Origin: Agathobacter ruminis
Lineage (GTDB): Bacteria; Bacillota; Clostridia; Lachnospirales; Lachnospiraceae
DNA: 64,000 bases
NCBI RefSeq assembly: GCF_002735305.1
Contig: NZ_PDYG01000001.1
Span: forward strand, 1 to 64,000
Reading direction: 5' to 3'
Shown one piece after another: positions 25,775-49,500 of the stretch (position 1 is the first letter of the stretch; the number at the start of each line of letters is the position of its first letter). The translations under genes were made by a program, and so were the position numbers. The notes under the pieces are model-generated. The model was given only the letters and a program-made list of their open reading frames with translations. It ran no database searches and was not told where the DNA came from.

Positions 25775-25775
25775 A

Positions 25776-33807: not shown

Positions 33808-33829
33808 AACTTCCTCTTCTAAGCTCTTC

Positions 33830-34130: not shown

Positions 34131-34166
34131 GAAAAAGGCCCTCTCCCGTTCTTAGGAGAAAGCCTT
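34131..34166 (-). terminator. intrinsic terminator after VirD4 gene
   Basis: AAGGCTTTCTCC pairs with GGAGAGGGCCTT (G-T pairs included) around TAAGAACG, then TTTTTC on the minus strand. It overlaps the VirD4 stop codon and lies 90 bases before the Maff2 start. Confidence 0.8.
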
Positions 34167-35928
34167 AGTCTTCGTTGATTTCGATGACTTCATATTGGTC
34201 ATCGGGTTTCAATATTAAGTTGTGATCAAGGAACTTCTCGATATCGAACCAGTTCCTTTTGTCCGCATCCGCTGTCAGCGGATATTTCGGATGTTGCGTT
34301 AAGTCGTACTTATCTGAAAGAAAAGGTCTTACGCCTCTGACTTGGACAATACACTTGCCGCCATCCATGACCGCCAATTCGTCGATACTCATAAGATCAT
34401 GACCTAACTTCTGGTAATTCATGTTGTAGCTCTGACTCGTACCCCTGGTTTCGCCCGTGTTATACATATCAATCGTTTCTTTACCAAGAATAGTGTTCAG
34501 GTCCTTTAGAGTCGTCTGTTCAGAGCCGCCCAGGAATATCTGGGTGTCGCAGTTACCAATGATGGTATCTGCATTGTCTTTGTAAATCGCCTTAAGCTGT
34601 GATTTTGCCTGCAGCACAAGTGCTGCAGATATCTCACGGCTACGGATGGTAGCCATAAGTTTCTCAAGATTCGGAATCTGGCCGATGTTTGCTGCCTCAT
34701 CAATAAGACATCTTACATGCACCGGAAGCCTTCCGCCATAGACATCATCTGCTTTTTCGCAAAGTAGGTTGAAAAGCTGCGTGTAAACCATGCTGATCAG
34801 AAAATTAAAGGTTGCGTCTGTATCTGACATGATAAGGAATAACGCTGTCTTCTTATCGCCCAGGGTATCAAGCTCAAGTTCATCGTATGCCGTAATCTCA
34901 CGAAGCTCCTTTATATCAAAGGGAGCGAGCCTTGCGCCGCAGCTCACAAGTATGGATTTGGCCGTCTTGCCGGCACTTAACTTGTATTTGGCATATTGGC
35001 GTACCGCAAAGTGATCCGGGTCACGTTCTGCAAGCTCGTCAAACATGAGATCTACAGGGTTTTTGAACTCTTCGTCATCTTCCCTGACTTCCATCGCATT
35101 GATCATTTCAAGCAAAGTTGAAAAGTTCTGCTCTTCCTCCGGTGCTTCATAATGGATGTATCCGATAAGCGCCGAATACAGTAGTTTCTCTGCCTTTTCC
35201 CAAAATTCATCATTGGATTTACCTTCGCCTTTGGTGTTGGCAATCAGCGTGGTTACAAGCTTTAAGATGTCCTTCTCATCATGCACATAAGCGAATGGAT
35301 TGTAATGCATACTCTTTTTAAAGTTAATGGTATTGAAGATTTTTATACGATATCCATTCTTCAAAAGAGCATTCCCAACCTCAGGTAAAACGGTGCCTTT
35401 CGGATCTGTAAGTACATAGGAACTATGCATTTGCAGGAGGTTCGGCTTGATAAAAAATCTCGTTTTACCGGAACCTGAACCGCCGACCACTAGCGTATTC
35501 TTGTTCCTTGCGTACTTTGGATTGGTAGGTCTTGAGTTCATGGTAAGTCTCTCAGTCTGTGAAAGAATCACATTATTCTGAAAGACCGGGTCCATGTATG
35601 GCTCTATGTCCTCATGTTTCCCCCACCTGGCAGATCCATATTCCTGATTGTGCCGAAATTTCTTGGCATTCTTGCCTTTGATATATACCGCAAGCCGCAA
35701 GATTCCACCGATAGCAAGTCCTACTAATAAATCAATAGGATGTAAGCTCGGCAATGGATTGGCAAACGCTGTTCCAAAGCAGCCATCCAGCACTACACTC
35801 TGCACCTTTTCAGATGCATTCGTTCCACCGGCGATGCGAAAAGCCTCTCCGATGTTGGTTGCTACAAGTCCTATCACAACATAAGGGATGTTCAGGATAA
35901 GTAACTTTTTAAGGTTCTTCTTTTTCAT
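34165..35928 (-). CDS. VirD4-like coupling protein (CD1115 family)
   Basis: 587-aa type IV coupling ATPase that brings the relaxase-DNA complex to the channel. Two N-terminal membrane helices lie within the first 90 residues; Walker A is VVGGSGSGKTRFFIKPNL; Walker B is VRCLIDEAANIGQIPNL; the sensor region has LQAKSQLKAIY. It overlaps the PcfB gene by four bases. Full length and without frameshift. Confidence 0.95.
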   Translation of the reverse strand: MKKKNLKKLLILNIPYVVIGLVATNIGEAFRIAGGTNASEKVQSVVLDGCFGTAFANPLPSLHPIDLLVGLAIGGILRLAVYIKGKNAKKFRHNQEYGSARWGKHEDIEPYMDPVFQNNVILSQTERLTMNSRPTNPKYARNKNTLVVGGSGSGKTRFFIKPNLLQMHSSYVLTDPKGTVLPEVGNALLKNGYRIKIFNTINFKKSMHYNPFAYVHDEKDILKLVTTLIANTKGEGKSNDEFWEKAEKLLYSALIGYIHYEAPEEEQNFSTLLEMINAMEVREDDEEFKNPVDLMFDELAERDPDHFAVRQYAKYKLSAGKTAKSILVSCGARLAPFDIKELREITAYDELELDTLGDKKTALFLIMSDTDATFNFLISMVYTQLFNLLCEKADDVYGGRLPVHVRCLIDEAANIGQIPNLEKLMATIRSREISAALVLQAKSQLKAIYKDNADTIIGNCDTQIFLGGSEQTTLKDLNTILGKETIDMYNTGETRGTSQSYNMNYQKLGHDLMSIDELAVMDGGKCIVQVRGVRPFLSDKYDLTQHPKYPLTADADKRNWFDIEKFLDHNLILKPDDQYEVIEINED

Positions 35929-36428
35929 CGCTCCATCTCCTTCCGCTTTTCCTTACTCTTGCGAGGCATGGAAGCAACTTTTTCTTTGAACTTCTTTAGT
36001 TTCTGAAGGACACTCGGGCGCTCCTTCTCAGCAGATTTCTTTCGTTTTGTCTGCTTAGCTGCATATTCCTTCAAAACCTGAGTGATAGCATCCGCATCCC
36101 TGGCCTTGAAGAAGACAGTATACTTCGGCGGAGTCTCATTCTTGTCTTTAACAATGGCAAAATCCACTCCGTATTTGTTGGCAAGTTTCTTAAAATCACG
36201 AATACCGGAATCTCCGATCTCCATGCTTGAAACTCCCTGGTCCTGTCCTATAAGTTCCTTAACAGATTGTTTCCCCTTGGTATGAGTATTCTTCGCCACC
36301 TGCTTTAGCCGGTGCTTATTCTCCAACTTGCGCTTATAGGCAATCAAAGCCTTGATTAAAAGCCTTAAGGATACTTTGGTCGTTTTTACAGCTAGGTTCA
36401 CTGTTTTGTTTTCTACTTCTTCCTGCAC
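35925..36428 (-). CDS. PcfB family protein (DUF3801)
   Basis: 167-aa protein. The start VQEEVENKTVNLAVKTTKVS then RLLIKALIAYKRK and the later segment KKLANKYGVDFAIVKDK define DUF3801/PcfB, which in pCF10 joins the relaxosome to the coupling protein. The C-terminal 45 residues are strongly basic. I chose GTG 36428, with AGGAAG seven bases upstream, over a TTG seven codons earlier because the family starts here. ATGA overlap with virD4. Confidence 0.88.
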   Translation of the reverse strand: MQEEVENKTVNLAVKTTKVSLRLLIKALIAYKRKLENKHRLKQVAKNTHTKGKQSVKELIGQDQGVSSMEIGDSGIRDFKKLANKYGVDFAIVKDKNETPPKYTVFFKARDADAITQVLKEYAAKQTKRKKSAEKERPSVLQKLKKFKEKVASMPRKSKEKRKEMER

Positions 36429-36458
36429 CAAATCACTTCCTTTCCTCAAAAACAGTTT

Positions 36459-36869
36459 TTAAAGCAACTCAAGTGCTGAAAACTCCTGCCCGTCGCATAC
36501 AAGCGTAATCAGTCTGCTCTTAAATTCCGCAGCTGCCTTCTCAAATTCGTCTCCAACAAGCATAGATAAAGCCCTGCCATCAAATTTCATAATGATAACA
36601 GAGCCTATAAAACACTTACCGGTTCCAATATTGATAATCTTGTCACCGTTCATCATGGCAATATAGTCACTATCACCCATATATTCACCATGTCCAATGT
36701 CATTAAGCTTATCCAGGATTTCCTGTGCCTCATACGCATCTACAATACGGGATTCGCCGTTTGTCGCGATAATAAGAGCACCCTCGTCTTTACGCTTAAG
36801 CTTGGTCTCTTTGAGCACTGCTCCATCATTGACGGGATCAAGTGCAATCTTGATATCCAATGTTTCCAT
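36459..36869 (-). CDS. uncharacterised ICE protein (136 aa)
   Basis: Soluble mixed alpha/beta protein beginning METLDIKIALDPVNDGAVLK. No domain recognised and no membrane segment. GGAGG before the ATG. It lies between the RepA gene and PcfB, tight on both sides, hence part of the transfer transcript. Confidence 0.68.
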   Translation of the reverse strand: METLDIKIALDPVNDGAVLKETKLKRKDEGALIIATNGESRIVDAYEAQEILDKLNDIGHGEYMGDSDYIAMMNGDKIINIGTGKCFIGSVIIMKFDGRALSMLVGDEFEKAAAEFKSRLITLVCDGQEFSALELL

Positions 36870-36883
36870 GTTACGTTCCTCCG

Positions 36884-37753
36884 TTAAATACGACCTTCAG
36901 CCATGTCATTGTTGACCCAGGCCTGATAATAGCTTTGCATAGTCAGAGGCGCATTATATATGGCAGCAAGCAGGTACTGTTTGATGTTACGCACCTTGGC
37001 AGGGTTCTTCTTCATGCAGTCCATGACATATTCAAGATGCATGGAATTGATTTTCAAAAACTGAGATTTCACCACGTTCACAGGCTTATCATCCCCTGCA
37101 ATACGGATAGTTCTCCGCTTGGAGCAAACAACATCAAGCATAAGATCCATGATTGCATCCAAAGTCTCCCGGTCATAGGGATACCGCTCATACATAATCT
37201 CCATATCAAGTTGGGAATTAAGATAATTACGGTAGGATGTTCTCTCATCCATATCCTTATCCGCTCCGGATAGGATAGGATTAGTCTTATTACTCTCAGT
37301 ATTATTTTTCTCAGTCTTATTAGTTTCCGATTTGCGATTGTCCAGAGTTCCGGTATGCAGAATTACAGAGTTCTGCTTTTCAGAATCCAAGAGTTCTGCT
37401 TTTCGGAATCGGGTAAAATCTTTCACATAGATAATGGTGGGTTTACCAAGCCCCTGCTTTTTGCGTTCAATAAGACCAAATTCATCCAGTTCCCGCAATA
37501 GTCCACAGGCTTTTGTATTTGCGCAGCGCATAGACCTTTTCACACTTTTTATCGTGTAATAGACATAGACACGCCCCGCATCATCCAACCAGCCATTTTC
37601 CCTGGATAGACTGATTCTATCCAAAAGAAGTCCGTACAAAACCTTGGCATCTGTAGACAGTGCCTCAAAAATTTCTTCTGTAAAAAGCATCTTGGGAATC
37701 CTGTAAAACGAATAGCTTTCTGACTGCTCCTCATAAAAGTAGTCAAAAACCAT
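36884..37753 (-). CDS. RepA-type replication initiator (RepA_N with DUF6017-like tail)
   Basis: 289-aa protein. The N-terminal winged-helix initiator domain reads YSFYRIPKMLFTEEIFEALS then DAKVLYGLLLDRISLSRENG and KSVKRSMRCANTKACGLLREL; a Ser/Asn/Thr linker follows; the C-terminal part has YERYPYDRETLDAIMDLMLD and AIYNAPLTMQSYYQAWVNND. These are typical of plasmid and ICE RepA_N proteins and imply that the excised circle replicates. Five iteron-like repeats lie 1.6 kb upstream at 39346-39396. Confidence 0.9.
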   Translation of the reverse strand: MVFDYFYEEQSESYSFYRIPKMLFTEEIFEALSTDAKVLYGLLLDRISLSRENGWLDDAGRVYVYYTIKSVKRSMRCANTKACGLLRELDEFGLIERKKQGLGKPTIIYVKDFTRFRKAELLDSEKQNSVILHTGTLDNRKSETNKTEKNNTESNKTNPILSGADKDMDERTSYRNYLNSQLDMEIMYERYPYDRETLDAIMDLMLDVVCSKRRTIRIAGDDKPVNVVKSQFLKINSMHLEYVMDCMKKNPAKVRNIKQYLLAAIYNAPLTMQSYYQAWVNNDMAEGRI

Positions 37754-37757
37754 AGCA

Positions 37758-37955
37758 TCACACTTCCTTTGCCTTGTTCTTTGCCGCCCTGTGCTCTTTC
37801 ATGATTTTGGCGTAACAAGGGAAACAGAAGGCTTTGTTATAACCATAAGGACATTCTGTCTTACAGTTCTGAGGATGAGCTATCGGCTCCGGTCTTCCGA
37901 CTACGGGAGTACTGCTACTTCCTACAGCTCCCAATACGTTGTAATGTGCTGACAT
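37758..37955 (-). CDS. small cysteine-containing ICE protein (65 aa)
   Basis: MSAHYNVLGAVGSSSTPVVG then a compact motif CKTECPYGYNKAFCFPCYAK with four Cys that could bind zinc, and a basic tail. AGGAGG precedes its ATG; it ends five bases before the RepA start. An attenuator-like hairpin lies just upstream. Function unknown. Confidence 0.7.
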   Translation of the reverse strand: MSAHYNVLGAVGSSSTPVVGRPEPIAHPQNCKTECPYGYNKAFCFPCYAKIMKEHRAAKNKAKEV

Positions 37956-37975
37956 TTTTATTACCTCCTATGCAA

Positions 37976-38020
37976 TAGAAAAAGCGCCAGACCGAAGGTC
38001 ATAACCTCCGGCTGACGCCT
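37976..38020 (-). terminator. strong terminator between DUF5688 and RepA block, shares stem with the one at 39.2 kb
   Basis: On the minus strand GGCGTCAGCCGGAGGT pairs with ACCTTCGGTCTGGCGC around TATG, then TTTTT. The outer stem CGTCAG/CTGGCG is the same as in the hairpin at 39181-39230. It lies about 20 bases before the next gene, so it can act as an attenuator. Confidence 0.85.
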
Positions 38021-38037
38021 TGTACATCATGATGAGA

Positions 38038-39117
38038 TCAGAGTGCTTCGCCACCCTTGGCCTTGGCACCCTTATCAAAGGTTTCTTTCTTCGGAGTCTT
38101 GGCGACTTCCTCTTTCTTGGCTTTGAGATCACCAAGCACAGATTTTTCGCCTCTCTCCTCAGCATGCTCCGCTTCCTTTTCAGCCTGGCGCTGTACGAAC
38201 TTTTCACCAAGCTCGAAAATCTTTTCCTTACTGTCATAGTGGTAAACACTGTCAGTAAGCTTATCAGCAGGAGCAACCTGCGTTGCATTGACTTCCTTTA
38301 CCATTGCCTCAAGATCCTTTAAGCTCATCTCGCCATTGTCAGGCACGATCAGAACCTCATGGATGCTCGAAGGCAAAATGAAGAAGTCTCCACCGGCTCT
38401 TTCAGCTGCCTGGTCCATAAAGTTCTGATATGCAAGAACTCCGGCACCATGTACCTTATCGGGTACTGTAGCAACGTAGATCTTTTCATCTTCAGGCGCT
38501 ACAGGGAAAAGTCCCATCATTTCAGCCTGCTCAACTCCCATCATCTCAGCCATGACTTCACTCATGCCTTTGATTTCAACGGGTTTGATCTGAGGCGCAT
38601 TCTCCATTGCATCAGCATGAAGCTGTTCAGGTGTAACTCCCATGCTATCAAGCAGCTGGTTTGTAACGAGGATCGATGCTCTTCCATCGTCATCGGAACT
38701 TAAGACGAAACGATAAACAACCGCCATATCTTCCATATTCTGATGAGGTACGGTTTCAAGCATTTCCTTGTTGGCCTCTGCGGAAACAACTTCCATCGCA
38801 AGCTTTTCCTTCATCTGAGAGTAATCAGATAAGGAATCGATATCGAACTCCGGTCTCTGGTTGATTCCGTTATTGATGACATCTACTGCCTTATCAACAA
38901 CTTCATCGTAAGGTCTGCCGTCTTCGACTGCTCCGTAGAACTTGTCGATTCCGATGTTCACTCCGATGTTGCTGCCCTCGGGTGTAACCGTGATTGCCTC
39001 ATAACTCTCATTCAGCTTATTCACAGTATGAATGGAGAGATCAACCTCTGCACCCTGCTCGTAAAGTCTGTCTTTCACATCCTCTACGAATTTTTCTTTG
39101 AAACTTTCGTAATCCAT
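38038..39117 (-). CDS. DUF5688 family ICE protein
   Basis: 359-aa soluble protein. The start MDYESFKEKFVEDVKDRLYE, the central DDGRASILVTNQLLDSMGVT and FILPSSIHEVLIVPDNGEM are typical of DUF5688, a family seen on Lachnospiraceae elements with no known activity. The last 50 residues are a charged low-complexity tail. Flanked on both sides by related terminators, so it is a separately controlled unit. Confidence 0.85.
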   Translation of the reverse strand: MDYESFKEKFVEDVKDRLYEQGAEVDLSIHTVNKLNESYEAITVTPEGSNIGVNIGIDKFYGAVEDGRPYDEVVDKAVDVINNGINQRPEFDIDSLSDYSQMKEKLAMEVVSAEANKEMLETVPHQNMEDMAVVYRFVLSSDDDGRASILVTNQLLDSMGVTPEQLHADAMENAPQIKPVEIKGMSEVMAEMMGVEQAEMMGLFPVAPEDEKIYVATVPDKVHGAGVLAYQNFMDQAAERAGGDFFILPSSIHEVLIVPDNGEMSLKDLEAMVKEVNATQVAPADKLTDSVYHYDSKEKIFELGEKFVQRQAEKEAEHAEERGEKSVLGDLKAKKEEVAKTPKKETFDKGAKAKGGEAL

Positions 39118-39180
39118 ATTTTGATTTCCTTTCTGTTTGCATTAGCATTGGATCGTCACCCTCCGCCTGGTTGATGGCAA

Positions 39181-39230
39181 TAAAAAAACGCCAGGCCCAT
39201 GACCTCGTTTGAAGCCATAAGCTGACGCTT
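39181..39230 (-). terminator. attenuator-like terminator in the DUF5688 leader
   Basis: AAGCGTCAG..TATGGC pairs with GTCATG..CTGGCG and is followed by T7 on the minus strand. It lies 64 bases before the DUF5688 start; a second palindrome, TTCTTTTGCAAAAGAA at about 39244-39259, lies just upstream in the same leader. Confidence 0.82.
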
Positions 39231-39345
39231 GAATCTGCCGGTATTCTTTTGCAAAAGAAATGGGCTCGGTGTCCGGGATTTGTTCCCGTTCGCTTTGCCC
39301 ATTGTAAATATAACACATCAAAAATCGCTTGAAAAGGGAACCAAT

Positions 39346-39396
39346 AGGTAACTGACAGGTAATTCGTAGGTAATCAACAGGTAATCCATAGGTAAT
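39346..39396. repeat. five iteron-like direct repeats, period 11 bp
   Basis: AGGTAAC/T recurs at 39346, 39357, 39368, 39379 and 39390, exactly eleven bases apart; the unit is roughly AGGTAATCNNC. No gene overlaps it. Equal spacing of one helical turn and the presence of a RepA gene on the element suggest an origin or a handcuffing/control site. Next to it a sixth, decayed unit may be present (GGGAACC at 39337-39343). Confidence 0.75.
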
Positions 39397-39403
39397 TTTC
39401 TAA

Positions 39404-39685
39404 TTAACCATGCATAAGACCCTTGAAAAACTCCTGTCCGAACTCAAGCTCTACTTCTATCCAGCCTATAGTAAACAATAATATGAAACAGATGACAACA
39501 GACGCCCCGATGATTCCTACAGCGAGCCACTGTGTCGCTATCACTGATAAGATAAGAAGGATAATCATTGGAATAAATAACAGGCTTGCAGCCCTGCAAT
39601 AAAGCGAAGATATAGCAGTTGCAAATAAACGAAGTATTCCAAACAACAGTATCATAGGAAGTGCAATAAGTATCTTAACTATTCT
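39404..39685 (-). CDS. CD1845-like small membrane protein
   Basis: 93-aa protein with a hydrophobic N-terminus (ILIALPMILLFGILRLFATA) and two further membrane segments (LLFIPMIILLILSVIA, VGIIGASVVICFILLFTI), then an amphipathic end FGQEFFKGLMHG. Pattern and place fit the CD1845 family of mobile elements. I chose ATG 39685, after GGGGGC, as the start because the membrane segment then begins at once. It overlaps the upstream regulator gene by eleven bases. Confidence 0.72.
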   Translation of the reverse strand, partial: RIVKILIALPMILLFGILRLFATAISSLYCRAASLLFIPMIILLILSVIATQWLAVGIIGASVVICFILLFTIGWIEVELEFGQEFFKGLMHG

Positions 39686-39962
39686 CATGATCAAATGCCC
39701 CCTTTCTCTTCTCATTAAGAACCTTATAAGCAATCAAACGAAGAACGTACTCCGGCATAACACGACGGCCAAGCTCCCACTCCTGCATCGTTCTATAAGG
39801 AATGCCAAGCCAATCGGAAAAGTCCTTGCGATTCATACCTGACTGCTCTCTGATCATTTTAAAAGCATAAGCCATCTTACGACGCTCTGCTTCGGTATCA
39901 TCCTTAGAGGTTCTTTCAACCTCAATCTCAATTCCTTCTACGTTATATATCTCAGTCTTCAT
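39675..39962 (-). CDS. helix-turn-helix regulator, probable autorepressor
   Basis: 95-aa protein. The C-terminal two thirds form an XRE/HigA-like domain: AYAFKMIREQSGMNRKDFSD, then WLGIPYRTMQEWELGRRVM. The N-terminal part (MKTEIYNVEGIEIEVERTS) is a short extension. ATG 39962 follows GGAGAG. It is the first gene after a promoter whose spacer is a perfect palindrome, the likely operator of this protein. Confidence 0.85.
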   Translation of the reverse strand: MKTEIYNVEGIEIEVERTSKDDTEAERRKMAYAFKMIREQSGMNRKDFSDWLGIPYRTMQEWELGRRVMPEYVLRLIAYKVLNEKRKGAFDHENS

Positions 39963-39981
39963 AGGCACTCTCCTTCGCTTA

Positions 39982-40038
39982 TGTAGTCAGTGCGTGTATC
40001 CTACTATAATTATAATGTAGTCAATGACTACACGTCAA
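39982..40038 (-). promoter_or_regulatory. sigma-A-type promoter with palindromic operator in the spacer
   Basis: Minus strand: -35 TTGACG (40038-40033), 18-base spacer, -10 TATAAT (40014-40009). The spacer is filled by the perfect dyad TGTAGTCA-A-TGACTACA (40016-40032). A further half-site TGTAGTCA lies at 39982-39989, past the start point. A repressor bound here would block polymerase, most likely the helix-turn-helix protein encoded next. Confidence 0.8.
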
Positions 40039-40107
40039 GGCAAAAAAATATCAGCCGCTATAATTTGCAGCTGATATTTAAATTCCGGTATATCTTACTA
40101 TCGCCCC

Positions 40108-40998
40108 TTATCCTAACCATTTCTTTGCGAATTCAACCAGTTTCATAACGCCTTCGGAACCATTCAAATCCAGATCTATGGCAGCTCTTGAATCTGATCG
40201 CATTTCGTCCGGATACTGAGCATCATATGCCGGTTTCATCACTGACTGGTAGAATACCTTAAACTCATCCAATCCTGCTTTCTCAGTTAAGTCTGTTTCC
40301 TTAACTTTCTGCTGAAGGCGCTCTATCAACTCCTGATTGGTCGCTACACTTGTCACAGCTGATGCACTTGCAGGTCTCCTTCCAAAGAGCTTCTCCATTT
40401 CATCTTTCGCTGGCTCAGGGATAGTCTGCTTCAGTCCCCAATACTGTCCTGCCGATTCATCATCATTCTTTACATAATTGGGTTTTGATATCAAATCATT
40501 GTTGCGATCGATCAAGCGGGCATTATAATCCTTCATTGCTTTGACTATAACCTGTCTTTGATCCTCAGAGAAAGAAGCAGCCGCACATTTATCCACCAAG
40601 CTCTCAGCTAATGCCATTTTCGTGTGGTCATTATAGCTAAGTGTGCCCTGCTTTAACTGACTTGCCATCCCTGTCACCAGGTCTCTGGCGGATTTAAATT
40701 CTTTTTCAGAAAAATCAACTTTTCCAATTCTATAAACTCCATCAGCATTTGTGCTGATGGGAATATCGCTGCGATAAAGAGCGCTCACCGAATGGTTATT
40801 CCAAGACTGTCTTACCTTCTCTAATTCTTCAGCGCCCATAGCGGATATTTCCACCTTAACAGCAGGGACACTGCCTAATGTATTCGGATTTGCTACGCTA
40901 TTATCTTTTACCTGGCTGACTTTTTCTGCAAAAGATGCCTGTATTTTATTCTGATAATCTGCTGACTTATCAATGTTCATAGGACTTATGCTGTTCAT
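40108..40998 (-). CDS. uncharacterised ICE cargo protein (296 aa)
   Basis: Soluble, mostly helical protein beginning MNSISPMNIDKSADYQNKIQ. It has no signal peptide and no domain that I recognise. GGAGGG before the ATG. It is the last gene of the four-gene cluster that follows the LytTR-box region at 43.4 kb, and shares with its neighbours a short Asn/Ser/Tyr-rich start and helical, charged body. Confidence 0.7.
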   Translation of the reverse strand: MNSISPMNIDKSADYQNKIQASFAEKVSQVKDNSVANPNTLGSVPAVKVEISAMGAEELEKVRQSWNNHSVSALYRSDIPISTNADGVYRIGKVDFSEKEFKSARDLVTGMASQLKQGTLSYNDHTKMALAESLVDKCAAASFSEDQRQVIVKAMKDYNARLIDRNNDLISKPNYVKNDDESAGQYWGLKQTIPEPAKDEMEKLFGRRPASASAVTSVATNQELIERLQQKVKETDLTEKAGLDEFKVFYQSVMKPAYDAQYPDEMRSDSRAAIDLDLNGSEGVMKLVEFAKKWLG

Positions 40999-41090
40999 AG
41001 GCTATGCCCTCCTTGGCAAATAATAACACTTATCTTTTAAATCGGCACAATACTCTAAAACTTAAATTGTTTACACTCGGTTTGTCAGAA

Positions 41091-41840
41091 TTATACCCCA
41101 AAATCAATCTTTGCTCCGGCTCTTGGTCTTACTTCCTCCACAACCTTATCCCAGTCCACTTCCCGGATCTTCTTGATCAGTTCATCAGCAGAACCCCCAC
41201 GAACAACGCTCCGTTTAACCCTGTCTTCCTGCTGCTCCTTAAGCTTCTTGGCCTTAGCCTCTTTTTCCTCTTCCTTCTTCTGAGCCTTCTTATCTTCTCT
41301 TGCCTGATCAATTCGCTTCTTCTGATCCGCACTGCTCTTTTCAAGCTCTGCAAAGAACGAAACACTTCCATCCGACTTCACGGAAAATCCAATATTCTTG
41401 ATATCGGCTTTTTTCACACCATCTTCACCGTCATCAAGTTTGGCAACCTCGTCCTTCACCTCAGAGATCTTATTCTTGGCATCATCGATAATGCCAAGAT
41501 ACTTTTCTTTTACGCTTTCATCCGCAGCCATCTTTTCCAGAAGCTCCGGCTCGATCAGGACACTGTAATCCTTGCTGCCTCTGGAAAGATACTTCTGAGC
41601 CTCATCATCAGACGAATAATCCGCAACAAAGAAATCCATATCACCATATTTCTTCTGCATCTCATTCAAAAGATCCTTTGCACCCTGGCTAAGCTCTGGC
41701 TGTTTTGAAGCCGTTTTTTGAGCAGCGCCATATTTTTCAACAGGCTTTTTATCCGTCCGCTTATTCTCAGGCTTTGCCTTTTCATATATATTTTTCTGAA
41801 AACCTACATCAAACGATGTATATCCGCCAATCTTACTCAT
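41091..41840 (-). CDS. DUF6033 family protein
   Basis: 249-aa protein. Starts MSKIGGYTSFDVGFQKNIYE, then a Ser/Gln/Lys linker, the core LLNEMQKKYGDMDFFVADYS and SRGSKDYSVLIEPELLEKMA, a Lys/Glu/Ala coiled coil (about 165-205) and a C-terminal RAGAKIDFGV. These features match DUF6033, known only from Firmicutes. I chose ATG 41840 because a perfect AAGGAGGT lies before it. Function unknown. Confidence 0.8.
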   Translation of the reverse strand: MSKIGGYTSFDVGFQKNIYEKAKPENKRTDKKPVEKYGAAQKTASKQPELSQGAKDLLNEMQKKYGDMDFFVADYSSDDEAQKYLSRGSKDYSVLIEPELLEKMAADESVKEKYLGIIDDAKNKISEVKDEVAKLDDGEDGVKKADIKNIGFSVKSDGSVSFFAELEKSSADQKKRIDQAREDKKAQKKEEEKEAKAKKLKEQQEDRVKRSVVRGGSADELIKKIREVDWDKVVEEVRPRAGAKIDFGV

Positions 41841-41889
41841 GGAATCGACCTCCTTATCAGAATTCCGCATCCGTGCGCATGAAAATATA

Positions 41890-42438
41890 TCACACCTTCA
41901 CATCCACATTTTTCCCTGCCGGTTCTGATACTGATCCTGTACTTACAGTAATTCCGGAAGATACAATATCAATCGAAGCACCGTCAAGTACTGTGCCTTC
42001 TGTAGATACAGCCTCGCCCTCATCAGATACTTCACCGCTCTCAGAAGTAGATACTTTAGCCTTTTCGATTCTTTCTTCTGCGGCCTCTTTTTCGGCTTTC
42101 TTCTTCTCGGCAGCTTTCTCTGCTTTCTTCTTTTCAGCAGCCTTCTCTGCTCTCTGAGCCTCCAGATCTTCCTTGGATGCTTTCTTCAGGTCTTCGTTCG
42201 CCGTGGTCAATGTGTTTATAGTTGTTTCAGCAAGTTCTGCCGATTTCTTTTGTGTTTCTTCAAGCTCCTCTTTTTTCTTTGTAACATCTCCGCCGCGGGC
42301 GGAATCAAGTTTTATTTCAGCATCAAGCACACCGGCATGTCCATCCATCTGTTTCTTGGTCGCATGCTGCACATGTGCGATCTGCCTTGATGTATTCGCT
42401 GACAAAAGCGCCCCAGTCATAATACTCGATAATGCCAT
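41890..42438 (-). CDS. uncharacterised coiled-coil protein (182 aa)
   Basis: Begins MALSSIMTGALLSANTSRQI with a small-residue helix, followed by about 100 residues of Lys/Glu/Ala coiled coil (repeats of AEKKKAEKAA) and a Ser/Gly/Val-rich end. AAGGAGG before the ATG. Located between two DUF6033-type genes in the LytTR-controlled cluster. No known domain. Confidence 0.68.
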   Translation of the reverse strand: MALSSIMTGALLSANTSRQIAHVQHATKKQMDGHAGVLDAEIKLDSARGGDVTKKKEELEETQKKSAELAETTINTLTTANEDLKKASKEDLEAQRAEKAAEKKKAEKAAEKKKAEKEAAEERIEKAKVSTSESGEVSDEGEAVSTEGTVLDGASIDIVSSGITVSTGSVSEPAGKNVDVKV

Positions 42439-42456
42439 ATTCTTGTCCTCCTTGAC

Positions 42457-43275
42457 TTACAGTTTCATATCCAGATTCAAACCAACCGAACCATCCCTTA
42501 AGCCCTTTGCTGCCTCTCCGGCAAAAATATCATCCGAAGCATCGTACCACTCAGATCCCTTGTACTTATCTCCCAGAAGCTCCCGGTTGTCACTATCTAT
42601 CTTTTTCTTCATGGTAGCTTGTTCTTCTTTATCCGCCTTGCGTTTTTCCTCTAACGCTTCCTTCTTCTCAGTAGCCGCTTCTTTCTTTGCGGCAATTTTT
42701 TCCTGTTCCTTTCTCTTTTCTGCCTTCTCTTTTCTGACCTTGTTTGCGTAATCATTCATTTCCTGACCATAGTGGCGCTTATTTGTAGGTTCTCCGATAC
42801 CCCACTTGGCAATTCCACCATCTTTATCAACAACCCATCCCCGAGCAACCAGACGTGTCCCTGCCATTTCATGCATCTGTAACTCTTGTTCATCCAATCT
42901 TTTCATGTTTTCAAACTCATCTTCATATTGTTTTTCAAGCTCAGGATTATTCGCCATTTTCTTCAAAAAATCCGGCGAGATTGCTATATTGGTTGTTTCA
43001 AGTGAGCCATATCTTTTTGCAGGTGAAAAAGTTGCTGCCGTATAGTTTGCAGCAACAAAAGTAAAACCTTCATGGTTATTTTTAAGGTACGTCAGTTCAT
43101 CTGCCGCCGTTTTCCTTACGCTTTCATTCTGCTTTGTATTCCCGACAGAAGATGCCTGCCCCTCTGTCTTATCTGCCTCATTTGTAGGCTTTGAAGTTTT
43201 TACCTGCTTCGTTTCCTTTTGATTTGTATAGGTACTTGCGTAGTTACCATACACACTGTTGATTTCCATTGCCAT
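42457..43275 (-). CDS. DUF6033-type protein, first gene of the LytTR-linked cluster
   Basis: 272-aa protein beginning MAMEINSVYGNYASTYTNQK, with the core ELTYLKNNHEGFTFVAANYT and ISPDFLKKMANNPELEKQYE that parallels the core of the protein at 41.1-41.8 kb (FFVADYS...IEPELLEKMA). A long Lys/Glu coiled coil follows, then DASDDIFAGEAAKGLRDGSV. AAAGGAGG upstream of the ATG. A paired LytTR box lies about 120 bases before it, so this is probably the regulated target operon. Confidence 0.75.
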   Translation of the reverse strand: MAMEINSVYGNYASTYTNQKETKQVKTSKPTNEADKTEGQASSVGNTKQNESVRKTAADELTYLKNNHEGFTFVAANYTAATFSPAKRYGSLETTNIAISPDFLKKMANNPELEKQYEDEFENMKRLDEQELQMHEMAGTRLVARGWVVDKDGGIAKWGIGEPTNKRHYGQEMNDYANKVRKEKAEKRKEQEKIAAKKEAATEKKEALEEKRKADKEEQATMKKKIDSDNRELLGDKYKGSEWYDASDDIFAGEAAKGLRDGSVGLNLDMKL

Positions 43276-43393
43276 ATTCTCGTCCTCCTTTGACCTTTAA
43301 TCCTGAAATCCGTTTCATCCGATTATGACGGGATAGATATTCTTATCTAATCTCTTTTTCGGAAGCCGCAAATCAGATATAAACCCCTATGTA

Positions 43394-43422
43394 GTGAACG
43401 GCAGGTTTATTGATGTGAACGG
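43394..43422 (-). promoter_or_regulatory. paired LytTR-type box upstream of the DUF6033 cluster
   Basis: GTGAACGG at 43394-43401 and GTGAACGGT at 43415-43423 (ACCGTTCAC on the minus strand), start-to-start 21 bases. This matches the two-site direct repeat used by LytTR regulators such as AgrA. The same pair with the same spacing is found before the regulator gene itself. Confidence 0.8.
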
Positions 43423-43428
43423 TAAATC

Positions 43429-44805
43429 TTAACCCGGGATCATCATCAAAGCCGTAAAGATTACCATATCCTCACGCTGTTCAAGCTGTATAGTGCCGTA
43501 GTATTTCTCTGTGATTCGTTTCATGTTCATCAGCCCATATCCGTGACTCTCCTTATCATCTTTTGATGTCTCTGGAAGTTCGGTCTGCGGATCCAGCACA
43601 AGTTTCCCGGCAAAACTGTTCTTCACCTGTATCAGATAGGCATTGTTATTCTTCCAGGCCTTCACTTCAACATACGGATCCTTGCTTTCTGATGCCGCTC
43701 TTATCGCATTGGACAACGCATTATTCAAAATGACACCGATATCAATGGATTCCACCTTCCCGCTTGACGGATAATGGAAATTCTGGGTAAAAGATATCCC
43801 GGCTTCCTCAGCCTCACGCATCTTCTCGGAAATAACGATATCCGTGACAGGATTCCCTGTCTTTGCATTGATTTCCGGCATAGGAAATCCGTTTTGCCAG
43901 TCATTAAGGTATTTTGCCGCCTCCTCAGTCTCGCCTTTATCAAGCAAATTCCCAAGAACCATGATATGGTTATTGATATCATGTCTTATCCCTCGGATAT
44001 CGGAATACAATGCTTCTATCGTATGCACATGTCCTGACAGTTCTTCCACCTGCTTGGATACAAGGGCATTCTGCAGTGCATCCTCCTGTGACTGTTTCAT
44101 ACGCTGATATGAGTACATGACCGTAATAGCCGCCAGAAATGCTATCACTCCAAACAGTGCACGGATCCCGTCGTAAACCGGGTAATTATTCCATACATAT
44201 TCCCCGGAAGTGTTCACATATACATCTGATAGAAATGAACTGATCCAATATCCGGCGATAACAGCCACATAAGGAGATGCCAGCAATGTCAGCTCCCTCC
44301 ACTCCATCCGTTCATTCTTCCTGGCATATACTTTTTCCGAAATAAATATCTCCAAAAACAGCAAAGCATTTTCTACCGCAACAAGCAGGACTAGGGCAAC
44401 GATAAACCAGACATATTGTTTCCCCGGATCGTCCGTCGTCTCTCTCATATAGGTAAGGCCACTTATCAGCTTCCAGGGCAGAGCCGAGATCACCTGAGCT
44501 ATCCACAGAAACATATATATCGTCATTGAAAGAAAAACCTTCTGAGGCAGGTTTCTTCTCTCACAAAGCAATGATATAAGACATACCGCAATGATCCCGA
44601 TAATATATGCCACCACACCTGACATAGAAAACGGAATCAGATAAAGAACCGTCATTACTACAAAGAATAATGCACCTATCAGGACCGCTGACCTCTTTTT
44701 TATCATATAAGGGACATAGAACCTTGCTACAAGGATCGCGCTGACAAACAATCCTGCTATAGCAGATATGGTACTGGCTATATCCCACATTCTTTCCATA
44801 TTCAT
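43429..44805 (-). CDS. AgrC-like GHKL sensor histidine kinase
   Basis: 458-aa kinase. The N-terminal ~215 residues have six hydrophobic segments, the sensor. The dimer/phosphoacceptor region reads DIRGIRHDINNHIMVLGNLL with the His before Asp, and the GHKL ATPase has NNALSNAIRAASE (N-box) and HGYGLMNMKRI (G-box). AgrC-type kinases respond to peptides; no agrB/agrD genes lie nearby. Start ATG overlaps the regulator stop (ATGA). Confidence 0.9.
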   Translation of the reverse strand: MNMERMWDIASTISAIAGLFVSAILVARFYVPYMIKKRSAVLIGALFFVVMTVLYLIPFSMSGVVAYIIGIIAVCLISLLCERRNLPQKVFLSMTIYMFLWIAQVISALPWKLISGLTYMRETTDDPGKQYVWFIVALVLLVAVENALLFLEIFISEKVYARKNERMEWRELTLLASPYVAVIAGYWISSFLSDVYVNTSGEYVWNNYPVYDGIRALFGVIAFLAAITVMYSYQRMKQSQEDALQNALVSKQVEELSGHVHTIEALYSDIRGIRHDINNHIMVLGNLLDKGETEEAAKYLNDWQNGFPMPEINAKTGNPVTDIVISEKMREAEEAGISFTQNFHYPSSGKVESIDIGVILNNALSNAIRAASESKDPYVEVKAWKNNNAYLIQVKNSFAGKLVLDPQTELPETSKDDKESHGYGLMNMKRITEKYYGTIQLEQREDMVIFTALMMIPG

Positions 44806-45515
44806 GAATCAATCCTCCTACGGCTGTATTCCAGATAAGCTTTAAGGAATCCGTCATATTCCCTTCTTGATATAGGGATATTGTCTCCACCCGTGAGTGT
44901 TACTGACGTGCGGTCATATCTCTCCACATATTTCATATTTACAAGATAAGACCTATGTATGCGGTAGAAATCCTTCCCGACAAGATTTTCAAGTACTGAT
45001 AACTGTCCGTAATACTCTATGCTTTCATTCTTCATGTGAAGGATCGTCTTTCGGTCATATACCTCCGCATATAAAAGCAGGGACAGATTCACCCTGATAT
45101 GCGATGTGCCGGACTGGATTTCAATATATTTATCATGCTTACCGGATTCTGCCCCCGATCTCTTCAAGTCCTTTACCGCATTTTCAAGCACTTCCTTAAG
45201 TTTCTCATCAGCCACCGGCTTCACAAGAAAGTGGAACGCATGAAAATCAAATGAATTGAACACTTGGTCTTCTTCACCCGTAATAAAGATCAGGATCTTT
45301 CTCCAGTCCCTGTCCCGTAATGTCTTCGCCACATCCATGCCACTCAATCCCGGCATTTTGATATCAAGCAGCAGAATATCCGGCAATACATCCGCACCAA
45401 GTAATTCCTCTCCGGATGCATAAGTCATAATCTCTGCACCGGGACAGATTTTTCCCACTTTTTCGGCAAGGATGGCGCATATTCTCTTTTCATCATCACA
45501 AATAGCTATTCGCAT
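44802..45515 (-). CDS. LytTR family response regulator
   Basis: 237-aa regulator. The receiver domain has the acidic pair in IAICDDEKRI, phosphoacceptor Asp in DILLLDIKMPG and Lys in HFLVKPVADE. The LytTR DNA-binding domain follows, with LLYAEVYDRKTILHMKN and FYRIHRSYLVNMKYVERYDR. ATG 45515 follows GAGGAG; a longer frame would add 22 unrelated residues. Its promoter carries a paired LytTR box, pointing to positive autoregulation. Confidence 0.93.
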   Translation of the reverse strand: MRIAICDDEKRICAILAEKVGKICPGAEIMTYASGEELLGADVLPDILLLDIKMPGLSGMDVAKTLRDRDWRKILIFITGEEDQVFNSFDFHAFHFLVKPVADEKLKEVLENAVKDLKRSGAESGKHDKYIEIQSGTSHIRVNLSLLLYAEVYDRKTILHMKNESIEYYGQLSVLENLVGKDFYRIHRSYLVNMKYVERYDRTSVTLTGGDNIPISRREYDGFLKAYLEYSRRRIDS

Positions 45516-45594
45516 CAAATGTCTCCTCTTCGTTCCGGTCGGCGCAAAGCAGACATCCACCGGATATCTTGCGCCCTCCAAGGTATACTTTATA

Positions 45595-45665
45595 ATTATA
45601 TCGGATGTTATACATGGATTTCTGCCACCTATGATGTGAACGGTCGATTTTTTGCAGTGAACGGT
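45595..45665 (-). promoter_or_regulatory. LytTR-box promoter of the two-component operon
   Basis: GTGAACGGT at 45636-45644 and again at 45657-45665, spaced 21 bases start to start. Downstream on the minus strand TATAAT (45600-45595) can serve as -10; no good -35 lies at the right distance, which fits an activator-dependent promoter. The proximal box ends about 12 bases before the expected -35. Confidence 0.78.
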
Positions 45666-45921
45666 AAATTAACGCACAAAAATAAGCCCGCAGCCATCGG
45701 CTCTCACCGACAACTACGGGTACCTTGCTTCACATCATTTTACACCCCAAAATGTATCACAAACTTCCGCTCCCTCTCTGCGACCACCAGCATTTCCGTC
45801 AGCCGCCTCATTTCGGACACATCCTTGACCGCATAAGAAATAATTTACATTAAAATTCGGAACCTTATATCTATTAGCCATTTTCAATATTTTTTCATTT
45901 TTGGCTAATAGAAGCATAGCA
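45666..45921. other. gap with terminator, inverted repeat and short frame remnants
   Basis: No convincing gene. It holds a minus-strand terminator (CCCGTAG..TCGG with CCGA..CTGCGGG then TTATTTTTG, 45685-45723), an inverted repeat CTATTAGCCA / TGGCTAATAG (45870-45910), and two overlapping open frames of 33 and 48 codons on the minus strand (about 45740-45881). The 33-codon frame (SEMRRLTEMLVVAERERKF) looks more protein-like and may be a remnant. Confidence 0.45.
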
Positions 45922-45957
45922 TTAAAAAAAACAGCACCGGACATTTTGACCGGTGCT
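45922..45957 (-). terminator. intrinsic terminator after the ICE macrodomain gene
   Basis: AGCACCGG / CCGGTGCT with a 9-base loop, then GTTTTTTTT on the minus strand. Confidence 0.9.
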
Positions 45958-45995
45958 TATTTTTCTTGGGCTCCCAAATACTGAGTTCCATCCTT

Positions 45996-46775
45996 CTACT
46001 GCAATAATTCACTATATATCTCTAAATCCAAATCCTTGTAAACATTAAATACAACCTTCAGCTGGCTACCAGTCTCAGCCAGCCACGCTTTTACGGTATC
46101 AACAGCTATCTCTGCTGCCCTCTGATTTGGAAACATAAAGACTCCGGTTGATATACAGCACAGTGCAATACTCTCTACATTATTCTCTTCTGCAATGTCC
46201 AAGCAGGATCTATAACAAGATGCCAATAGCTCTTCATGTCTTTTAGTAAGCGATCCTTGCACTATTGGTCCCACGGTATGAATAACATATTTACACGGAA
46301 GATTGTATGCAGGAGTAATCTTTGCTTTACCTGTAGGTTCCTCATGCCCTTGTGCTCTCATAATGCAATTGCACTTAAATCTAAGAGAAAGCCCGGCTTT
46401 GCTGTGAATAATATTATCCGCACAATTATGAAGTGGGCTGAAACACCCTAATAAAGCACTATTGGCAGGGTTCGTTATAGCATCAACCTTCAGTGTTGTC
46501 ATATCCCCTTGCCAAAGAAAAATCCTACTATCGCTTTCTATAGGTTGAAGACTTTCAATATCAGTAATGCCAGCGCGATTATTCTCTTCTTGAAGATATT
46601 CATCCTGGATTTCCAGAAACTCAGCTGAAAGATCCTTAGGCATCCATACATTCATCAATGCGCGAAGCAAATCTTTTTGACCTTGTTCATCGTTAGGTAT
46701 CGGGTAATTACTTAATTGATTATCTTCTTTTTGAAGTTCATTTATTAACCAAATTCGTTGTTCCTCGTGAGTCAT
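45996..46775 (-). CDS. ICE-borne full-length macrodomain protein (zinc-type ADP-ribosylhydrolase family)
   Basis: 259-aa protein with the same layout as the split host protein: helical N-terminus (RALMNVWMPKDLSAEFLEIQ), then WQGDMTTLKVDAI, the nucleotide loop NPANSALLGCFSPLHNCADN with Cys111, His116 and Cys118 as likely zinc ligands, and CCISTGVFMFPN. Compared with the host copy it has NPAN for NAAN, CADN for CIDN and HSKAG for HTFAG, so specificity may differ. ATGA overlap with the XRE gene and its own AAGGAG. Likely removes ADP-ribose put on by SirTM; inference. Confidence 0.87.
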   Translation of the reverse strand: MTHEEQRIWLINELQKEDNQLSNYPIPNDEQGQKDLLRALMNVWMPKDLSAEFLEIQDEYLQEENNRAGITDIESLQPIESDSRIFLWQGDMTTLKVDAITNPANSALLGCFSPLHNCADNIIHSKAGLSLRFKCNCIMRAQGHEEPTGKAKITPAYNLPCKYVIHTVGPIVQGSLTKRHEELLASCYRSCLDIAEENNVESIALCCISTGVFMFPNQRAAEIAVDTVKAWLAETGSQLKVVFNVYKDLDLEIYSELLQ

Positions 46776-47236
46776 GAGATATCAACTCCTTTTTCTTTTG
46801 CCATTTTCTTAATGATATTATATGCCTCTCTGCTGGGATGATGTTCGTTTATTTCTGCTTCCCATATACTTACAGTGCTTCGATCAACGCCAACGATTGG
46901 TGCAAAGTCTTTTTGAGATACCCCATAAGCAGCTCTTATAGCCTTAATCTTCTTTCCGAACCCAGGCAAGCAGAAACGAGTATATTCATCCATCAGTTCT
47001 TCAGGATCAATATTTAGGGCCTTGCCAATCAAAACCGCATTTTTATAATGAATAGGATTAAATCCCTTTTCAAGATTAACAACTCCATATTCCGTCATAC
47101 CCAGTATATCGGCAAGTTCTGATTTACTAATTCCATTCTTCTCACGATAATATTGAAGAATTGCACCGGGCGAAGCATTCTCCGGTTTTGATATCATTGG
47201 AATCGCAAGGTTTACAAGCACCTTGCCTAAGCGCAT
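46772..47236 (-). CDS. double XRE-domain regulator at the ICE right end
   Basis: 154-aa protein with two Cro/C1-type helix-turn-helix domains: REKNGISKSELADILGMTEY (about 30-75) and RAAYGVSQKDFAPIVGVDRS (about 98-140). ATG 47236 has no good ribosome site (weak AGGTG), only 33 bases from the core. In the integrated state an in-frame TAA spans the core just upstream; in the excised circle the frame is open back into the serine recombinase. It is coupled to the macrodomain gene. Confidence 0.82.
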   Translation of the reverse strand: MRLGKVLVNLAIPMISKPENASPGAILQYYREKNGISKSELADILGMTEYGVVNLEKGFNPIHYKNAVLIGKALNIDPEELMDEYTRFCLPGFGKKIKAIRAAYGVSQKDFAPIVGVDRSTVSIWEAEINEHHPSREAYNIIKKMAKEKGVDIS

Positions 47237-47637
47237 TTGAGCACCTGTGTGATTGAGTATAGTATCGCGTTATCTATACAAGTATGCATCGGGACAAAAC
47301 AACCGAGCATCTGCGAATTAGCGGCATTAACAATAGCATCCACCGAAAGTCTTGTGATATCTCCTTGCCAGATAGAAAGTCCATCCCTGATAACCGGGAT
47401 GTCTGATAGATTCACCACACCCTTTTCAGCCGCTCTTTCTGTCAGATATTCATCCTGTACTTTCATTACTTCAGAAGACAATTCTTTTGGCATACGGATG
47501 TTCATAAGCGACCTTAAGATTCGTCTTTTTTCTTCCGTACGATTTGGAGTCTGTAATTCCTTATATTCAGCAGAATCTGCCTTGAACTCTTCTACAAGAT
47601 AATCAAGACGTTCTTCCTGTGTTCTATTCTTTGGCAT
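47227..47637 (-). pseudogene. N-terminal half of host macrodomain gene, cut by the ICE
   Basis: From ATG 47637 (AGGAG nine bases upstream) the frame encodes MPKNRTQEERLDYLVEEF, then WQGDITRLSVDAI and NAANSQMLGCFVPMHTCIDN, 123 codons to the core AAC at 47271-47269. It then runs 14 codons into the element and stops at 47227. The nucleotide-binding loop and first zinc ligands are here, while the rest of the fold is 31 kb away. A start three codons earlier (47646) lacks spacing from the ribosome site. Confidence 0.92.
47250..47290. other. right attachment junction of the ICE (core GTT at 47269-47271)
   Basis: Element side left of 47269 ends in AGTATCGC(G); host side right of 47271 is macrodomain coding sequence. 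With the left junction the reconstructed attP reads AGTATCGCG-AA-CGCGATACT on the coding strand, a perfect 9-bp inverted repeat around the AA centre. Confidence 0.87.
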
Positions 47638-47694
47638 AACCTTCATCTCCTAACTACAGTCCCGGCAGGACAGGTAATGATTACAGTCACCCTC

Positions 47695-48450
47695 CTATTT
47701 CAGTATGCCATAGTCTTCATCTGACACGGCTTCCAGCCATTCATTGCTCGTATCTTCACCGGCAACCTCGATTGCAAGATGAGAGAACCATGAATCCGGT
47801 GCTGCTCCATGCCAGTGCTTTACTTCAGCAGGAATGTTTATTACTTTACCGGGTGTCATCTCAACCGCATCTTTCCCCCATTCCTGATAATATCCTCTTC
47901 CACCGATGCAGATCAGCATCTGACCGCCACCATTCTTAGCATGATGGATGTGCCAGTTATTACGGCATCCCGGCTCAAAAGTCACGTTGAAGACAGGCAC
48001 CTGCTCTGTAGAAACGGGAGCCAGATAGCTCTGTCCTACAAAAAACTGCCCATAAGGATTCTCTTCGCCTATAGGAAAGCAAATAGTATTCTGGTATCTG
48101 TCTTTTTCTGTCAGTTCAGGCACATCTTCGTTCCATACTTCTTTAGCAAGACGGAATACTGCCCATCCCTTTGGCCAACCCACATACATAGTGGCATGGG
48201 TTATGATTGCAGCTATCTCTTCTTTGCTTACACCATGTGCCTTTGCATTCTGAAGGTGATATGAAAGCGATGAGTCTGTGATGCCTGATGCCATAAGTGA
48301 AACCACTGTAATAATGCATTTGGTCTTCACGTCAATGGCTTCCTCATTCCATACTTCACCAAAGAGTATGTCGTCGTTCAGGTGCGCGAACATCGGCGCA
48401 AACTCACCAAGCTGTTCTCTTCCTGCTGTCTGTACAATTTTTTCTGCCAT
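47695..48450 (-). CDS. carboxymuconolactone decarboxylase-like / cupin fusion protein
   Basis: 251-aa protein. Residues 1 to about 115 are a CMD/AhpD-like helical domain (TKCIITVVSLMASGITDSSL, AAIITHATMYVGWPKGW), without a clear CxxC redox pair. Residues from about 130 form a cupin with metal ligands in CRNNWHIHHAKNGG and AEVKHWHGAAPDSW. Such fusions often sit with aldo/keto reductases. In the ancestral chromosome it lay 57 bases before the macrodomain gene, so it was probably part of the sirtuin operon. Confidence 0.85.
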   Translation of the reverse strand: MAEKIVQTAGREQLGEFAPMFAHLNDDILFGEVWNEEAIDVKTKCIITVVSLMASGITDSSLSYHLQNAKAHGVSKEEIAAIITHATMYVGWPKGWAVFRLAKEVWNEDVPELTEKDRYQNTICFPIGEENPYGQFFVGQSYLAPVSTEQVPVFNVTFEPGCRNNWHIHHAKNGGGQMLICIGGRGYYQEWGKDAVEMTPGKVINIPAEVKHWHGAAPDSWFSHLAIEVAGEDTSNEWLEAVSDEDYGILK

Positions 48451-48465: not shown

Positions 48466-49500
48466 CTAATATTTTCTGTGTTCCTGTAGTCCAAACATGG
48501 ATGCATCACTTCTCTTGTTCTGCGCCATGACACCCGCAAGGGGATGTGGCACATATGGCTCTTCAAGGTAAGTAAGCTCTTCGTCATTCAGTTCTAAATC
48601 CACAGCCTTTACTGCACCTTCTATATGATGCAGCTTGGTTGCTCCCACCACCGGTGATGTTACCTTAGTAAGGAGCCATGCCAAAGATACTTCTGTCATG
48701 GTTACACCATGTTTTTCTGCAAGCTCAGCCACACGACCTATGATCACATCATCCTGCTCTTTACTAGCATCATATTTAAACTTAGCATAGGTATCCTCGG
48801 CAGCTCTCTTGGTATCGCCCTCACCCGGCTTTCTGGAAAGCCTTCCGCTTGCCAATGCACTGTAAGGAGTCAGTGCAATGTTTTCCTCTTCACAATAAGG
48901 CACCATCTCGCGCTCTTCTTCACGGAAGATCAGGTTATAATGTCCCTGGATTGAAACAAACTTTGCAAATCCTTCTTTTTCTGCCAGAGCATTCGCCTTT
49001 GCGATCTGCCATGCAAAGCAGTTTGAAATGCCGATATACCTTGCCTTGCCTGCTCTCACTATACGATTTAATCCATCCATGATATCGTAGATATCTGTAT
49101 TCCAGTCCCACATGTGATAGATATACAGATCCACATAGTCCATTCCAAGGTTTTGAAGGCTTGTATTTATCATGTTTTCTATATGCAGCTGACCGGTAAT
49201 TCCTTTTTCAATCTCTTCAGGTGTCCTTGGAAGGAATTTTGTTGCTACAACCACATCCTCACGCCTTGCAAAATCTCTAATGGCTCGTCCCACGTACTGC
49301 TCACTAGTTCCGCTCTGATAAGCGATTGCCGTGTCATAGAAATTTACTCCAAGATCAAGACCTCTTTTTATGATCTCTCTGGAGTGCTCCTCATCAATCG
49401 TCCAGCTGTGCTGTCCCTTTGTAGCATCTCCAAATCCCATGCAGCCCATGCATATACGTGACACATTCAAATCAGAATTTCCAAGTTTTGTATATTTCAT
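48466..49500 (-). CDS. aldo/keto reductase
   Basis: 344-aa NADPH-dependent reductase of the AKR superfamily. It begins MKYTKLGNSDLNVSRICMGC, has catalytic Asp and Tyr in GVNFYDTAIAYQSG, Lys in VVATKF, and His in YIYHMWDWNTDI; the cofactor region has VVGATKLHH. Normal length. GGAAAGGAG precedes the ATG. First recognisable gene of the operon AKR - CMD/cupin - macrodomain - SirTM before the ICE entered. Confidence 0.93.
   Translation of the reverse strand: MKYTKLGNSDLNVSRICMGCMGFGDATKGQHSWTIDEEHSREIIKRGLDLGVNFYDTAIAYQSGTSEQYVGRAIRDFARREDVVVATKFLPRTPEEIEKGITGQLHIENMINTSLQNLGMDYVDLYIYHMWDWNTDIYDIMDGLNRIVRAGKARYIGISNCFAWQIAKANALAEKEGFAKFVSIQGHYNLIFREEEREMVPYCEEENIALTPYSALASGRLSRKPGEGDTKRAAEDTYAKFKYDASKEQDDVIIGRVAELAEKHGVTMTEVSLAWLLTKVTSPVVGATKLHHIEGAVKAVDLELNDEELTYLEEPYVPHPLAGVMAQNKRSDASMFGLQEHRKY

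Follow-up and report, generated by a model that had tools for sequence, protein, structure and literature searches.

An ICE that interrupts a Zn-macrodomain gene at one codon and carries a macrodomain gene of its own

Why does an ICE that breaks a host macrodomain gene carry another, full-length macrodomain gene just inside its right end? The question is raised by the window, by which we mean the whole stretch of 64,000 nucleotides of an Agathobacter ruminis contig (NZ_PDYG01000001.1) that was analysed. A first-pass annotation of this DNA had proposed that the insertion destroys a host de-ADP-ribosylating enzyme and puts another in its place behind the host operon promoter, which would keep SirTM from being left unopposed or would let the element retune the system. 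Here we describe the locus and its relatives and weigh the explanations for the carried gene.

The interrupted operon and the inserted element

The features of the window are as follows.

48466..49500, minus strand: host aldo/keto reductase gene (family search), upstream of the target gene and in the same direction
47695..48450, minus strand: host CMD-cupin gene (family search), upstream of the target gene and in the same direction
47270..47646, minus strand: 5′ half of the broken host Zn-macrodomain gene; the ORF with its ICE-coded tail is 47227-47646
47270..47271, no strand assigned: right crossover core, TT on the plus strand (AA on the minus strand), with an ICE-side palindromic arm to about 47246
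46772..47236, minus strand: double-HTH XRE gene of the ICE, 154 aa, between the host stub and the carried macrodomain gene
45996..46775, minus strand: ICE-borne Zn-macrodomain gene, 259 aa (Pfam Macro, E=2.6e-36)
45687..45720, minus strand: hairpin resembling a terminator, past the end of the carried macrodomain gene, a pattern match only
15925..47269, no strand assigned: ICE of 31.3 kb, from junction reconstruction and conjugation gene content
15884..17710, minus strand: serine recombinase, 608 aa as integrated, abutting the left junction, its last 12 residues host-encoded
15923..15924, no strand assigned: left crossover core, TT on the plus strand (AA on the minus strand), with an ICE-side arm to about 15948
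15487..15924, minus strand: 3′ half of the broken host Zn-macrodomain gene; the ORF is 15487-15963, with host sequence up to 15924
14637..15533, minus strand: host SirTM (class M sirtuin), an intact 298-aa ORF overlapping the end of the 3′ macrodomain half

Read on the minus strand, the order is aldo/keto reductase, CMD-cupin, 5′ macrodomain half, ICE, 3′ macrodomain half and SirTM, the last assigned by motif reading and linkage, without a Pfam hit. The 5′ half ORF (47227-47646) is 42% and the 3′ half ORF (15487-15963) 52% identical to the ICE-carried macrodomain. The Zn-macrodomain family is defined by the motifs Cx4HxC, Dx3H and NAAN (PMC11490716). Since the crossover is a 2-bp AA core inside the Asn codon directly after the catalytic Asp of Dx3H, the insertion, as read from this codon, parts the catalytic Asp from the catalytic His of the host macrodomain. 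The insertion is genuine and not an assembly guess, because a Butyrivibrio genome (G692, L250 5164-6066) has an uninterrupted macrodomain gene which both window flanks match at 97% DNA identity, the left-flank match ending at base 5629 and the right-flank match starting at 5630, with an exact 2-bp overlap on the shared core. The intact gene is found at 93-98% protein identity in 12 of the 79 genomes of this genus, and all 12 copies have CIDNCIHTFAG at the insertion site. With halves at both junctions, an intact carried copy and this empty site, the earlier claim that the insertion breaks the host macrodomain gene and supplies another stands.

The recombinase has Resolvase, Recombinase and Zn-ribbon domains (family search), and the cargo includes a relaxase, a coupling protein, a VirB4/TraG-like ATPase, TrbL, PrgI, NlpC/P60 and RepA_N. 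With an integrase, a relaxase and conjugation machinery between the att sites, the element is an ICE by gene content. The recombinase was not found in the viral contigs searched, and plasmids gave only a relative of 31% identity.

GcvH-L is the SirTM substrate known from Staphylococcus and Streptococcus. It is also the only known SirTM substrate (PMC11490716). By family search, the host-side neighbours of the window operon are the aldo/keto reductase and CMD-cupin genes and not those of GcvH-L and LplA2. Because a profile search of the window genome gave no GcvH match above the Pfam cut-off, SirTM here probably has a substrate other than the GcvH-L of Staphylococcus and Streptococcus. As a side observation, the macrodomain-SirTM pair (window 14637-15922 and 47272-47646) has 94-97% DNA identity to the Butyrivibrio genome G692, and the window sequence compared beside the pair has no match there, which together suggest that the target locus itself has passed between genera. 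By eye, an AbiEi/AbiEii-like gene pair lies on each side of the operon (window 12781-14387 and 49786-51227).

Between the right core and the start of the carried macrodomain gene are 495 bp, and the gene lies on the strand of the host stub, in agreement with the 0.5 kb and the direction given earlier. Lying 33 nt from the core, the start of the XRE gene overlaps the stop codon of the host stub, and a second overlap joins the end of the XRE gene to the start of the macrodomain gene. With spacing this tight, an ICE promoter would have no evident place, so that the XRE-macrodomain cassette looks promoterless, and we infer that its transcription depends on the host operon in the integrated state or on the recombinase in the circle. 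Of the claim that the gene lies behind the host operon promoter, the colinearity and closeness of the genes held up; the promoter itself is presumed, and a promoter scan at chance level (11 found, 11.0 expected) decides nothing on it. The host SirTM ends up behind the recombinase after integration.

The closest PDB structures to the carried macrodomain are Zn-macrodomain hydrolases (5kiv, E=3e-76; 8rsl; 8rsi). Its Zn-loop Cx4HxC reads CFSPLHNC, a motif kept in all carried copies checked, and its Asp/His dyad Dx3H reads DNIIH. The NAAN motif is not matched: the window copy, like most carried copies, has NPAN, and that of G301 has DPCN; by sequence comparison, the contrast of NPAN, CADN and HSKAG in the carried gene with NAAN, CIDN and HTFAG in the host gene, noted earlier, is real. 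Because both Asn residues are conserved and the similarity to solved members is full-length, we place the window protein near the Zn-Macro family despite NPAN. In the carried copies of G304 and G306, Gly replaces the His of Dx3H. Decay of these copies was considered and rejected, since the same change occurs in some non-ICE macrodomains.

Related elements and their targets

Among the 298 other genomes of the taxonomic family, only 3 have a recombinase at E<=1e-150; when about 85,000 species genomes were scanned, 12 close recombinase relatives came up, including that of Butyrivibrio hungatei DSM 14810. Many elements of this family come from fragmented metagenome assemblies. Of the left (recombinase-end) junctions, 11 extend far enough to be read, and all of these lead into a macrodomain gene at one and the same codon (window, G299, G300, G301, G302, G303, G304, G305, G306, G307 and G308, with only a short host stretch in G300 and G305). 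At the right end, the 11 resolved junctions, from several genera, all have an XRE gene followed by a full macrodomain gene in host orientation. These are the window, G299, G301, G302, G304, G305, G306 and G308 together with the relics G662, G741 and G563, whose genomes have no recombinase of this type and of which G563 has its XRE gene split into two ORFs. Both ends lie on one contig in the window, G299, G301, G305 and G308, and were paired by genome in G302, G304 and G306. The first-pass annotation had asked whether elements with similar recombinases always have a macrodomain gene at this end; they do at every resolved right junction, and a search across the family for a related element in the macrodomain site without the gene, which would have spoken against it, found none.

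The targets of the window and B. hungatei ICEs are about 97% identical in DNA, but the ICEs themselves only 70-82% where alignable, with lengths of 31 and 52 kb, and on these grounds we read them as separate insertions at one dinucleotide. The carried macrodomain genes have open frames and are under purifying selection (pN 0.17-0.37 vs pS 0.64-0.94, among eight), and mostly they are about 50% identical to the gene they replace. A single clade of ICE macrodomains was rejected (AU test, p=5e-5; 9e-4 without G308). With likely ICE-derived rows added and G308 dropped, the ICE macrodomains fall on one side of a weak branch (56/86). The copy carried by G308 is nearest to the usual target clade, and the G308 target gene is not. 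Since the carried copies do not form one clade and that of G308 is nearest to the target clade, the macrodomain slot seems to have been filled more than once.

The elements G201 and G169, whose recombinases are about 48% identical, form a separate clade with G578. They share the layout, with the XRE gene at the end opposite the recombinase, but in the element sequence read of all three the XRE gene is followed by TnpV and there is no macrodomain gene. The G201 element sits in a gene for an isochorismatase-type hydrolase. Because these same-layout relatives without a macrodomain target lack the gene, its presence appears to track macrodomain targeting and not the wider recombinase family, on three controls of which only the G201 target was traced. 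As a further observation on G201 (C14, L212-L213, about 40.5-57.5 kb), the insertion lies by eye at a TDVCV motif, again in an active-site region.

The macrodomain loci also vary in their surroundings. SirTM is not directly next to the broken genes of G302, G307 and G308, and some carriers hold further macrodomain genes, such as an intact host-type copy in G563. In G308 (C12, L130 7613-9729), the 5′ macrodomain stub is preceded immediately upstream by the gene of another serine recombinase, which itself lies behind a SirTM fragment; apparently more than one element has struck this locus. At a rearranged junction in G135 (C101, L143 2500-2960), the ICE arm GGTGTCGCAA continues into the 3′ half of a macrodomain gene of ICE type, with an apparent start of a DUF554-type protein upstream and no recombinase. 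In G234 (C73, L215 8312-9311), the end of an XRE gene directly precedes an NPAN macrodomain that adjoins SirTM, possibly an ICE copy turned resident gene. The site in the carried genes differs from the usual target site. The idea that the carried core is recoded against re-insertion of the element (self-immunity) was dropped because ICE-type copies have been hit in G135 and probably in G302.

A reading frame across the circle junction

In the reconstructed circles the junction is a palindrome, GTATCGCG-AA-CGCGATAC in the window and GTGTCGCA-AA-TGCGACAC in G304, flanked by TGTGTGATTC/GAATCACACA-like arms. The palindrome has 62 matches in viral contigs, about the chance expectation for so short a pattern, and the longer arm has none. 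In all eight macrodomain elements reconstructed (8/8), the recombinase frame of the circle runs stop-free through attP into the XRE gene, the first HTH motif following after 33 codons in the seven elements measured, and the right arm of the distant relative G201 is open in the same frame. Beyond the arm, the differences by codon position (0.56/0.37/0.64) are distributed as in coding sequence, and every element has stops in one or more of the other frames. Since no start codon lies ahead of the conserved GKLLI stretch in G304, G305 and G306, its conservation is best explained by translation out of the recombinase frame. The database search found no copy of an intact recombinase-XRE fusion. Integration would split this ORF, and the host-encoded tail of the integrated recombinase is 12 to about 70 residues long.

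This arrangement might amount to a double switch, a reading we put forward tentatively and consider rather doubtful. In the circle, the recombinase and the HTH-repeat XRE would be one protein, with the macrodomain next; integration would cut this protein, add the host-encoded tail to the recombinase and bring XRE and macrodomain under the host SirTM operon, so that the amount of free XRE protein, and through it excision, would reflect how active the host ADP-ribosylation operon is. Present also in a relative with another target, the frame across attP is a candidate for an integration-controlled recombinase switch.

Competing explanations and known systems

In our view the carried gene is probably explained by an ICE family that breaks a Zn-macrodomain eraser and makes good the loss. 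The serine-recombinase ICE would enter one codon of a Zn-macrodomain gene, usually the eraser of a SirTM operon, and destroy it. The XRE-macrodomain cassette, a few dozen bases from attR, in host direction and without room for a promoter of its own, would thereby take the former position of the host eraser and be transcribed from the host operon, presumably from its promoter. As a predicted hydrolase acting on the SirTM product, the carried macrodomain would restore the removal of SirTM-made ADP-ribosylation, a benefit to the host cell which would make the insertion tolerable.

It is also conceivable, though unlikely, that the whole writer/eraser pair is replaced, with a macrodomain-SirTM cargo under the host promoter and the host SirTM isolated on the far side of the ICE; the sirtuin would then have been lost from elements that carry the macrodomain alone, that of the window among them. 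A complete SirTM does follow the carried macrodomain in the Butyrivibrio relics G662, G741 and G563, and in B. hungatei (G207) a truncated one, its first part only; moreover, besides the carried SirTM, G741 has a host-type SirTM only as an 80-residue stretch (93% identical to that of the window). However, six elements in other branches (window, G301, G302, G305, G306 and G308) have no SirTM beside the carried macrodomain, and the host SirTM of the window is intact. Because SirTM is cargo in some elements only, the distribution fits a constant eraser and an optional writer across the family. The earlier suggestion that the whole system is retuned consequently stays alive for part of the family, namely the three Butyrivibrio loci with the pair and the truncated B. 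hungatei locus.

A use of the carried macrodomain for the ICE's own ends, such as stripping ADP-ribose marks made by recipient defences, with its position near attR serving early expression only, we hold to be improbable: in the circle it directly follows the recombinase-XRE frame and could be expressed on entry, but target and carried protein belong to one Zn-macrodomain class, and the same-layout relatives without a macrodomain target lack the gene. A landing pad which recreates the target for further elements would accommodate two observations, the G302 target being nearest to its own ICE copy and, in G135, an ICE arm being joined to an ICE-type macrodomain. These are two cases only, however, the carried sites differ from the usual one, and purifying selection on the whole protein would be left unexplained, so that we give this reading very little credence. 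Finally, ICEs carry diverse cargo, and the gene might be neutral cargo picked up by chance, but this is hardly credible given its conservation at one position in 11 of 11 cases, the repeated filling of the slot, purifying selection and absence from the controls.

If the preferred reading, a carried eraser that replaces the broken one, is correct, a destructive target becomes usable and a mobile element takes over a post-translational control circuit. The element takes aim at the catalytic centre of one partner in a writer/eraser pair and in every resolved case ships a replacement, which makes the cost of unopposed SirTM testable. A literature search, incomplete in coverage, returned no report of this site or element, of a protein enzyme replaced by an ICE, or of a serine recombinase joined to an XRE protein.

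Like the described SirTM/Zn-macrodomain operons (PMC4518038, PMC11490716), the target locus links a class M sirtuin to a Zn-macrodomain with Cx4HxC and Dx3H. The extended SirTM operon has GcvH-L and LplA2, whereas the window operon has neither and its genome no GcvH above the cut-off; the word “mobile” does not occur in the texts of the two papers. With serine-recombinase ICEs and large serine recombinases, the element shares the Resolvase/Recombinase/Zn-ribbon architecture, the 2-bp core, the palindromic attP and the relaxase and T4SS genes. Unlike serine-recombinase ICEs in general, it targets a codon in the active-site loop of an enzyme, carries a replacement for its target and has a recombinase frame open across attP into XRE. 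An attP inside an open frame is also a feature of integration-dependent immunity. In mycobacteriophage BPs, attP lies within the repressor ORF, and integration removes 33 C-terminal residues with a degradation tag (PMC4557955), the shortened product being active. In BPs integration thus changes the protein product of a regulator, whereas the recombinase-XRE frame of the window ICE would be split into two proteins.

A further close parallel is tRNA-dependent lysogeny, in which integration breaks a host tRNA gene and the phage supplies a substitute (mycobacteriophage Fionnbharth and others; PMC10865867). In both cases, integration at a short core leaves the target broken, and a homologue carried by the element is there for the job. 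Tyrosine-integrase phages, tRNA targets and experimentally shown essentiality characterise tRNA-dependent lysogeny; the window case has a serine recombinase, an ICE, a protein enzyme as target and a cassette beside the junction, and our knowledge of it comes from sequence. By analogy, the window ICE would work like tRNA-dependent lysogeny and, because of its protein-gene target and serine recombinase, is not a member of it. What these phages do with a tRNA gene, breaking that of the host and bringing their own, the ICE appears to do with the gene of a protein enzyme.
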